A DNA stretch of 44,841 nucleotides, from the NCBI GenBank assembly GCA_005888755.1, contig VBBQ01000037.1:11937-56777 (forward strand), given 5' to 3'. The notes under the pieces are model-generated. The model was not told the origin of the DNA. It saw only the letters and a program-made list of their open reading frames with translations, and made no database searches. Numbering within the stretch: the stretch's first letter is position 1; the number at the start of each line of letters is the position of its first letter. Both the position numbers and the translations under genes were made by a program. Positions 31,757 through 34,144 of the stretch are shown one piece after another. This DNA comes from Candidatus Bathyarchaeota archaeon. Its GTDB lineage: Archaea; Thermoproteota; Bathyarchaeia; 40CM-2-53-6.

Positions 31757-32011
31757 ATGAGAACGGAGGGGGAAGATCTGGATCAGTGCGCTGTCTGTGG
31801 AATGAAAATTGTAGACGCCACTACGAGTTTTTGCGGCAATCATTCGGAGGCGTATCGTAAAGTCAATGACGCATATTCGCTCTGGTACGCCGCCTACGGC
31901 AGCTTAACAACCGACGCTTTCCTCAAGCGTCTACTCACATTGCCTGAAACTGGTGATCGCGCCAGAGAGATGGCTCGGTTCCTGTCTCGTGATCCTGAGA
32001 GGTGGAAATAG
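31757..32011 (+). CDS. Small zinc-binding protein upstream of topoisomerase
   Basis: An 84-residue protein from ATG 31757 (the frame is open further, to 31682, but the extra part overlaps the apgM 5' region). A C-x2-C pair (CAVC) and a later C-x2-H pair (FCGNHSEAY), 14 residues on, look like a single zinc site. The remainder is helical (YSLWYAAYGSLTTDAFLKRLL). Function unknown. It ends at TAG 32009-32011, and the very next codon continues the topoisomerase reading frame. A strong GAGAGGTGG ribosome-binding sequence lies just before that stop. The two proteins are therefore made together, or as a readthrough fusion. Confidence 0.72.
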   Translation: MRTEGEDLDQCAVCGMKIVDATTSFCGNHSEAYRKVNDAYSLWYAAYGSLTTDAFLKRLLTLPETGDRAREMARFLSRDPERWK

Positions 32012-34144
32012 ATCAGGACACTGATCGTATGCGAGAAGCCCGACGCGGCTCAACGCGTCGCCCGAGCCCTCGACGACGAAAATCTCCCCCGAAAATTAGA
32101 ATCTCAGGGTGTTCCCTATTTCGAGTGTCATACCAAAACCGGACCGCTCATAGTCTGCTCAGCCCTCGGACATCTATATGGTGTCGATTCGAAAGGTCGA
32201 TCAAGTAGGAGCTCATATCCTGTCTGGGATTATTACTGGGCGCCAAAATATCTGATCGACAAGGCTTCAGCGAGGTTAGCTCGATGGGTACGTGTCATAG
32301 GATCCCTTGCCACAAACATGGATCGTTACATCAACGCCTGCGATTACGACACTGAAGGATCCGTAATCGGTCACACAATTCTGCAATACGCATGCAACGG
32401 CGCCGCCGTTAAGGCGCTTAGAATGAAGTTCAGTACCATGACCGAGCGGGAGCTTCGTTTCGCGTTTCAAAAGCTTGACTCAAAGGCCGAACTTCCGATA
32501 GTAAACGCGGGAAAGTGCCGGCATGAACTAGATTGGCTCTACGGGATCAATCTGTCACGATTGCTAACAGAGTCGGCGCTGAAGCAAGGGAAAGGCTACG
32601 CCACACTTAGCACAGGAAGAGTACAGGGACCCACTTTGGGCTTCGTTGTCGCAAGGGAGGAAGAGATATCATGTTTCGTCCCAGTTCCATTCTGGACAAT
32701 AGAAGCCACGATCGTTCACGACGGCAAGACCTTCGCACTAGAGTACGAAAGGGACAAGGTCGTTTCGCAGTCTGAGGCCAAGGTGATCTGCGGCGAGTGT
32801 CGAGACGTGCTTCTTGAAGTCAAGGGCATAGAATCCCATGACATTGAGCAGCAAGCCCCCTACCCATTTGACTTGTCTACTCTTCAATCAGAGTCCTATC
32901 GTCAATTTGGCTTCTCCCCGGGGAGGACGCTTGCTTTGGCTGAGAGATTGTACCTCGACGCGCTAATCTCTTACCCGAGGACGTCTAGCCAGAAACTCCC
33001 ACCCGATATCGGGTATGCGGAAATCTTGCAGGGAATCGGGTCTCATGCCGAATATCGATCTTTGGTCGCCAAACTCATGACCCGAGGCGTTCTTCATCCG
33101 AACAATGGTCCCAAGGATGACTCCGCTCATCCCGCAATCTTCCCTACAGGCGAATCTGCGAAAAAGCCCCTGTTCGGCGGAGAAGCCAAATTATACGATC
33201 TCATTTCGCGACGATTCATGGCCACCTTCGCAGACTCCAGCCTCAAAACCAGTTCCAGAATAATTCTCAACTACAACAACTACAGATTCTTTCTCTCAGG
33301 TTCCCGAATCGTCAGACTGGGTTGGATTGAATTCTACCTGCCATATGTGTTTGATGAATCACGATCTTTGCCTGACTTGAAGATCGGCGACAGAGCAAAG
33401 GTTCGAGATATGAAATCCGTCGAGAAGTTCACGCAGCCGCCTCACCGTTACAATCCCAGTAGTCTGCTGAAGAAAATGGAAGAGACGAACATAGGAACAA
33501 AGGCCACTCGAGCCGGTATAATTGATCTACTTTACACACGCGGGTATGTCAGAGACGAGAGGATGAAAGCTAGCGAACTCGCTGACAAGGTAACTGATGT
33601 TCTCTCAGAGTATTGCCCCTTGATCATCGATCCATCCTTCACGGCGAACATGGAGAACTTGATGCAAGACATCCAAAATGGAACATCATCTAAACGACTC
33701 GTATTGGTGGAAGCACTGGAGCATCTTCGATCCATCATGCGTTCCTTGGCAGAAAACGAGGAGAGGATTGGTTCTCAGCTCTCCGAGGTTGTTGTGGCAC
33801 AGAGAGTGGCTGATGTTACCTTTGACACACCCTGCCCGAAATGCGGGCTAAAGCTTGCGGTCGTTCGCAGCCGCGGGACTGGCAAGAGGTTCATTGGTTG
33901 CAATGGAAAATGGCAAACCGGATGCAGTTTCACCCTTCCATTGCCTCAATTCGGCAATCTTACACTTCTGTCCCGTCACTGCAAGACCTGTGGCTTCCAA
34001 ATGATTCAAGCAAGATCTAGAGGACGCCGGCCGCTAGTCTCCTGCCCGCGTTGCTACGTAACAAAAGCTAGAGATGCGGGTTCGTCTTCCAAGCGAATGG
34101 ATGTTCTCGCACGAATCGCGAGCGAAGCTCCGTCGGCTACTTGA
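32012..34144 (+). CDS. Type IA DNA topoisomerase (topoisomerase III-like), non-AUG start
   Basis: A 710-residue enzyme that relaxes or decatenates DNA by single-strand passage through a 5'-phosphotyrosine. The Toprim domain begins IRTLIVCEKPDAAQRVA (Glu8) and holds DYDTEG (111-116). The catalytic tyrosine is Tyr321 in LISYPRTS. GTKATRAGIIDLLYTRGYV closes the core. Two four-cysteine zinc fingers (CPKCG... and CKTCG...) end the protein. Between the TAG at 32009 and the first in-frame ATG at 32318 there is no ATG, GTG or TTG. Starting at 32318 would remove the catalytic Glu8. Translation must therefore begin at a rare codon (ATC 32012 or CTG 32021), preceded at 31997-32005 by GAGAGGTGG, or read through the TAG. 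A base error is also possible. Confidence 0.9.
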   Translation: MRTLIVCEKPDAAQRVARALDDENLPRKLESQGVPYFECHTKTGPLIVCSALGHLYGVDSKGRSSRSSYPVWDYYWAPKYLIDKASARLARWVRVIGSLATNMDRYINACDYDTEGSVIGHTILQYACNGAAVKALRMKFSTMTERELRFAFQKLDSKAELPIVNAGKCRHELDWLYGINLSRLLTESALKQGKGYATLSTGRVQGPTLGFVVAREEEISCFVPVPFWTIEATIVHDGKTFALEYERDKVVSQSEAKVICGECRDVLLEVKGIESHDIEQQAPYPFDLSTLQSESYRQFGFSPGRTLALAERLYLDALISYPRTSSQKLPPDIGYAEILQGIGSHAEYRSLVAKLMTRGVLHPNNGPKDDSAHPAIFPTGESAKKPLFGGEAKLYDLISRRFMATFADSSLKTSSRIILNYNNYRFFLSGSRIVRLGWIEFYLPYVFDESRSLPDLKIGDRAKVRDMKSVEKFTQPPHRYNPSSLLKKMEETNIGTKATRAGIIDLLYTRGYVRDERMKASELADKVTDVLSEYCPLIIDPSFTANMENLMQDIQNGTSSKRLVLVEALEHLRSIMRSLAENEERIGSQLSEVVVAQRVADVTFDTPCPKCGLKLAVVRSRGTGKRFIGCNGKWQTGCSFTLPLPQFGNLTLLSRHCKTCGFQMIQARSRGRRPLVSCPRCYVTKARDAGSSSKRMDVLARIASEAPSAT

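Follow-up and report, generated by a model that had tools for sequence, protein, structure and literature searches.

The window analysed here, a stretch of 44,841 nt (G000:C37:11937-56777), comes from a 2.0 Mb soil Bathyarchaeota MAG, and its nearest deposited relative is the MAG BA_21 (VBBP01000061). On the plus strand it carries a small zinc-finger-like gene (CxxC...CxxH; 31778..32011) and, as its downstream partner, a gene of 710 codons for a type IA DNA topoisomerase of the topoisomerase III-like kind (32012..34144). The zinc gene ends with ...CCT GAG AGG TGG AAA TAG (...PERWK-stop). From 32012 onwards, and in the same phase as this TAG (32009..32011), the sequence reads ATC AGG ACA CTG ATC GTA TGC GAG AAG CCC GAC, which places the peptide IRTLIVCEKPD at the opening of the topoisomerase. 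The GAG at 32033..32035 encodes the catalytic glutamate of the Toprim domain, residue 8 if the ATC at 32012..32014 is counted as residue 1. The first in-frame canonical start, an ATG at 32318..32320, is codon 103, and starting there would remove both the catalytic glutamate and the N-terminal part of the Toprim domain.

The earlier note on this DNA had pointed out that the topoisomerase frame lies directly behind an in-frame TAG, that no in-frame ATG, GTG or TTG occurs before 32318, past the catalytic glutamate, and that an SD-like GAGAGGTGG in the last codons of the zinc gene (31997..32005) is spaced for the ATC at 32012. All of this is borne out by the sequence, with GAGGT (31999-32003) ending 8 nt before the ATC, and the observation on the opening of the topoisomerase is correct and does not stem from a sequence error.

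Membership of the type IA topoisomerases is given by a Toprim domain with an N-terminal catalytic glutamate followed by a Topoisom_bac domain, and it needs translation from upstream of codon 8. Both Pfam matches are over their cut-offs: Toprim (PF01751) begins at residue 3, and Topoisom_bac (PF01131) covers residues 163-564 (E 2.7e-111). Among solved structures it comes closest to a topoisomerase III (PDB 6k8n, E 5e-99), with the alignment starting at query residue 4. The N-terminus thus read fits the family, where the Toprim strand begins at residue 3-4, and the C-terminal end holds two zinc-ribbon-like motifs. A search with PF01131 found this single type IA topoisomerase gene in the genome, and the topoisomerase is present in 86 of 101 related genomes. 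Its first 102 codons are under strong purifying selection (dN 0.02-0.11 vs dS 0.2-2); in species with dS of about 0.8-2, topoisomerase codons 2-102 show a dN of about 0.06-0.11, compared with 0.10-0.21 in the zinc gene. Among the window genes with comparable relatives, the topoisomerase alone can be aligned from codon 1 while its first canonical start lies, in nearly all species, 29-138 codons further downstream.

In G015 the topoisomerase (L193:12364-16014) is interrupted, in the DYDTEG region of its Toprim domain, by an intein (PF14890) about 500 residues long. A radical SAM protein from the same genome as the window (G000:C32; L165:2225-4348) has a PF14890 intein-splicing match just under the cut-off, together with an endonuclease-like domain. 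In the Toprim part of a topoisomerase fragment at a contig end of G008 (L050:4151-4747), a histidine codon has given way to an in-frame TAG (GSLIG*TIL), which is read as error or decay.

The upstream zinc protein has no Pfam match, and its dN is well below dS in all species. Its start is probably the CTG at 31778, judging from the homologous codon, which is CTG in nine species, CTA in G017 and ATG in G005. In G000 itself, ATG 31757 offers an in-frame upstream alternative. Five species, however, have an in-frame TAA two codons before the zinc-gene start, and this leaves them without a canonical alternative, apart from the ATG of G005. A short in-frame ATG/GTG...TAA stretch precedes the start in five species, as in ATG AGA ATG GAG AGG TAA GAT CTG.

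The junction between both genes was compared in 11 ingroup species, represented by independent assemblies and forming one supported clade (100/100). The zinc gene ends in TAG in all 11, and in all of them stop and presumed start touch at a distance of 0 nt on the same strand, the arrangement of the pairs in which termination-reinitiation takes place. The codon behind the stop is ATC in eight species (G000, G014, G004, G006, G017, G001, G010 and G015), ATT in two (G007 and G005) and ATG in one (G013), so that the relatives display a third-base variant as well as a canonical one. Topoisomerase codons 1-9 contain no further canonical codon in any species, and in 10 of the 11 no canonical start fits the conserved N-terminus, which is the situation known from infC and sigR. 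In the tree, G013 is the sister of an ATC species within the ATC group (supports 97/92 inside 100/99). Because it is nested among ATC species, the ATC would predate it and the ATG would be a later change at the same codon, and codon 32012 is very probably the start of the topoisomerase.

The earlier note had named an ATG at this position in close relatives as grounds for refuting its observation. Such an ATG was indeed found in G013 but, nested as it is, it points to the start codon and leaves the observation standing. Since Ile to Met is an ordinary substitution, the lone ATG is suggestive, not conclusive. The note had also offered ATC or CTG as a rare start codon. Of these, ATC gains from the ten species with ATC or ATT and from the nested ATG, whereas the CTG at 32021 (codon 4) is rejected because the codon varies between species, which have CTG, CTT, CTA or CTC there.

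The zinc gene also adjoins the 5' side of the topoisomerase in other Bathyarchaeia, and the comparison indicates that the pair is older than the same-frame junction. Outgroups from the same family (L009/L026, L013, L025 and L014) close the zinc gene with a TGA that is out of frame with the topoisomerase, whose GTG or CTG overlaps the zinc-gene end (GTGATA, GTGATG, CTGATT) in the usual -4 nt overlap. In almost all outgroups the start (GTG, ATG or CTG) lies one codon upstream, exactly at the position of the ingroup TAG. A one-base length change at the junction, from AAGTGATA to AAATAGATC, would bring both genes into one frame; the same change would place a TAG at the old start, leaving the next codon, ATA or ATC, to serve as the start.

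The topoisomerase start, which the earlier note had treated as a single-gene oddity, has company in the genus: phosphoglycerate kinase (PGK), GatE and the zinc gene show conserved non-canonical starts as well. The topoisomerase is best explained as belonging to a small set of genes in the genus that appear to start outside ATG, GTG and TTG. A second same-frame junction of like geometry is that of GatE (G000:C13:72886-74787; L250-L267), which in 15 genus genomes follows GatD in the same frame, behind a TAG or TAA. The codon after the stop is TCG in 12 genomes, GCG in two and TTG in one (G009), and in 14 of the 15 no canonical start is compatible with the conserved N-terminus. GGAGG lies 8 nt before GatE codon 1 in all 15 genomes, and in G014, G006, G017, G016 and G012 codons 1-7 include no codon within one mismatch of ATG. 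An ATA was considered as the GatE start and rejected, its place being taken by GTA, CCA, CAG or TTC in relatives.

PGK (G000:C41:12473-13729; L233-L248) has a CTG at codon 8 in every readable ingroup genome. No canonical codon precedes it there, and the next one in the downstream direction comes at codon 19-185. At the homologous codon the outgroups have TTG, ATG, GTG or CTG. The frame of SecY (G000:C4:21484-22983; L108:2484-3983) follows in phase behind an L15-like frame and its TGA, runs for 45 codons without a canonical start, and by coordinates opens at the same point in ingroup genomes.

The SD-like GAGGT is found 8 nt before the topoisomerase ATC in most ingroup species, and G005, a member of the genus, carries the anti-SD GGATCACCTCCT at its 16S 3' end. 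The spacing equals that of the Pyrococcus abyssi aEF1A mRNA, where GGAGG stands 8 nt before the AUG (PMC7531240). The element is weakened to GAGAAGTGG in two of the 11 species, G007 (ATT) and G001 (ATC), and its GG is lost in the ATG species G013 (GAGAGATGG). The coincidence of ATG with the loss of GG in G013 is suggestive only; two ATT/ATC species have a weakened element too.

Termination-coupled reinitiation at AUC/AUU is proposed as the best explanation of the topoisomerase start, with a probability of about 0.7. According to this model, the ribosome would end the zinc protein at the UAG (32009-32011), stay at, or be recaptured by, the SD-like GAGGU within the last zinc-gene codons, and restart on the adjacent AUC at 32012 (AUU or AUG in relatives), producing a separate protein (M)RTLIVCEKPD.... 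Methionine would be inserted at the AUC, initiation would be coupled to termination, and the weak codon may lower or tune the dose of topoisomerase. In Haloferax, termination-reinitiation operates at touching stop and start codons. An SD within the upstream gene assists it in most of the pairs tested (PMC6728339), and its efficiency drops sharply with distance (PMC10666635). Counting against a non-canonical start, SUI1 aIF1-like proteins are present, and in Sulfolobus aIF1 favours discrimination against such starts.

To our knowledge, starts outside ATG, GTG and TTG have been proven for very few bacterial genes. Among these are infC, with ATT or ATC, and sigR, which has GTC in 32 and GTT in two of 34 species (PMC5472188). 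The start of infC (IF3; ATT in E. coli, ATC in Streptomyces) resembles that of the topoisomerase in being a conserved third-base mismatch in an essential gene. However, infC is bacterial and autoregulated by IF3, whereas the topoisomerase is archaeal, abuts a stop codon and has no shown regulation. Streptomyces sigR likewise has a genus-wide non-canonical start with third-base variants, which annotation missed because gene callers assume ATG, GTG or TTG (PMC5472188), but it is bacterial, has a strong SD (AGGAGGTG) and does not lie directly behind an upstream stop. In Borrelia burgdorferi, the AUU start of pncA (BBE22) restores a catalytic N-terminal residue missing from the annotated protein (PMC13398362), much as the AUC would do here, although that case is bacterial and concerns a single gene. 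The reinitiation pairs of Haloferax volcanii and E. coli, with overlaps of -4 and -1 nt, share with the topoisomerase a stop that touches the start and an SD within the upstream gene. Those pairs use canonical starts in another frame, while here AUC or AUU (UCG or GCG in GatE) stands at zero distance in the same frame.

A 2021 review of archaeal recoding describes non-canonical archaeal translation as shown only at elongation and termination (PMC8211752). In the literature outside subscription journals we found no report of a natural archaeal start other than ATG, GTG or TTG, and no description of near codon-independent reinitiation in any archaeon. If the proposed reading is true, the AUC/AUU of the topoisomerase, the CUG of PGK and the UCG/GCG of GatE would extend non-canonical translation to archaeal initiation, and gene callers would be shortening or missing essential proteins of these archaea. 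The genes would also lend themselves, as constructs ready-made by nature, to finding out to what extent ribosomes that have just terminated depend on a start codon at all.

An alternative, which the earlier note had also raised, is readthrough of the UAG, with a fusion of zinc protein and topoisomerase as the functional product. The single TAG between two same-frame proteins in 11 species would suit it, and so would the similar layout of GatD-stop-GatE, whose products are subunits of one complex. This reading is nevertheless disfavoured and regarded as unlikely, given the lack of PylS and of a convincing CUA tRNA and the frame of the outgroups. PylS over the family cut-off was found in none of 18 genus genomes, against one of 14 control genomes, and TAG lacks the rarity as an ordinary stop that pyrrolysine use would lead one to expect. 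It is instead the commonest stop in the genome, ending 257 of 504 strong genes, in agreement with the earlier view that TAG is a normal stop here and that general recoding is unlikely. Conservation of the TAG was rejected as a sign of readthrough, since neighbouring genes with an ordinary TAG stop keep it equally well. Moreover, the zinc gene of the outgroups ends in TGA, out of frame with the topoisomerase, GatE is found after TAA as well as TAG, and the like layout of ribosomal protein L15-TGA-SecY would give an implausible fusion.

The tRNA evidence for readthrough consisted of one tRNA named 'Pyl (cta)' by ARAGORN (C17:8553-8644), which is conserved genus-wide except for some ten bases that vary. 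It has been reread as tRNA-Arg(UCU) bearing a bulge-helix-bulge intron: in our own splice reading, a central helix CCTC/GRGG with three-base bulges on both sides would leave the loop CCUCUAA, with the anticodon UCU. No convincing tRNA(CUA) was found in the genus, where intron-rich tRNAs make detection incomplete. Many of these tRNAs (e.g. G000 L213-L221) have introns, also at non-standard positions, and ARAGORN finds about five intron-free ones. The initiator tRNA was not found among them either, because they carry several introns.

It is also conceivable, though quite unlikely, that the initiator tRNA sits on the stop codon itself, which would place the start one codon earlier and give (M)IRTLIVCE whatever the codon. 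The start of almost all outgroups (GTG, ATG or CTG) coincides precisely with the ingroup TAG, and GatE has Ser or Ala immediately behind the stop in 14 of 15 genomes, residues that are typical in second place. Against this, UAG cannot pair with a CAU anticodon, and initiation at UAG in E. coli depended on an engineered initiator tRNA (PMC2268962). Where a canonical codon does turn up, as with the ATG of the G013 topoisomerase and the TTG of the G009 GatE, it is the one that follows the stop.

Quite unlikely, too, is a variant in which ribosomes start at the AUC de novo, guided by the SD in the ordinary way on a polycistronic or internal transcript and uncoupled from the zinc gene. The SD-like GAGGT at 8 nt from the ATC would serve such initiation equally, and PGK and the zinc gene have a CTG start without any abutting upstream gene. 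Yet the zero-distance junction is kept in 11 species, and in Haloferax junctions of this kind are known to be coupled.

A sequence error or a decayed gene, lastly, is an almost negligible explanation: these are metagenome assemblies, and the RpoB of G000 apparently has a spurious stop, but a junction common to 11 species of independent assemblies excludes chance as well as the base error at the TAG envisaged in the note, and the gene is under purifying selection and the sole one of its type found.

Beyond termination-coupled reinitiation at the topoisomerase, a broader reading is put forward tentatively, at somewhat less than even odds: relaxed start-codon recognition may be a trait of this lineage. 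CUG would then be routine (PGK, the zinc gene and probably others), and SD-positioned ribosomes behind stops would restart in a nearly codon-independent way, on AUC/AUU for the topoisomerase, UCG/GCG for GatE and perhaps UCA for SecY.

Less certain candidates for further start-less genes are ParA, UbiA, pyruvate kinase, TrpE, an SMC/Rad50-like protein and SecY, in all of which, in G000 only, the Pfam domain or expected N-terminus extends upstream of the first canonical codon. RpoB was rejected from this group, its frame being longer in relatives (1115-1127 codons). The G000 gene (L114:14202-17486) has an in-frame TAA about 20 codons past the point where the frame of the relatives opens, probably an assembly or strain error. 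Since the RpoB case came down to a problem of the sequence, the remaining candidates seen only in G000 are to be taken with caution.

Across the genome, SD anchoring gives no usable count of start codons because SD use is weak (ATG only 50 vs 27 expected). A codon-usage scan upstream of the first canonical start is noisy, with the topoisomerase itself scoring -2.7, and its second batch of candidates proved mostly ordinary when checked with Pfam. Four-nt CTGA overlaps are no more than mildly enriched over NTA controls (16/130 vs 59/976, p = 0.014).
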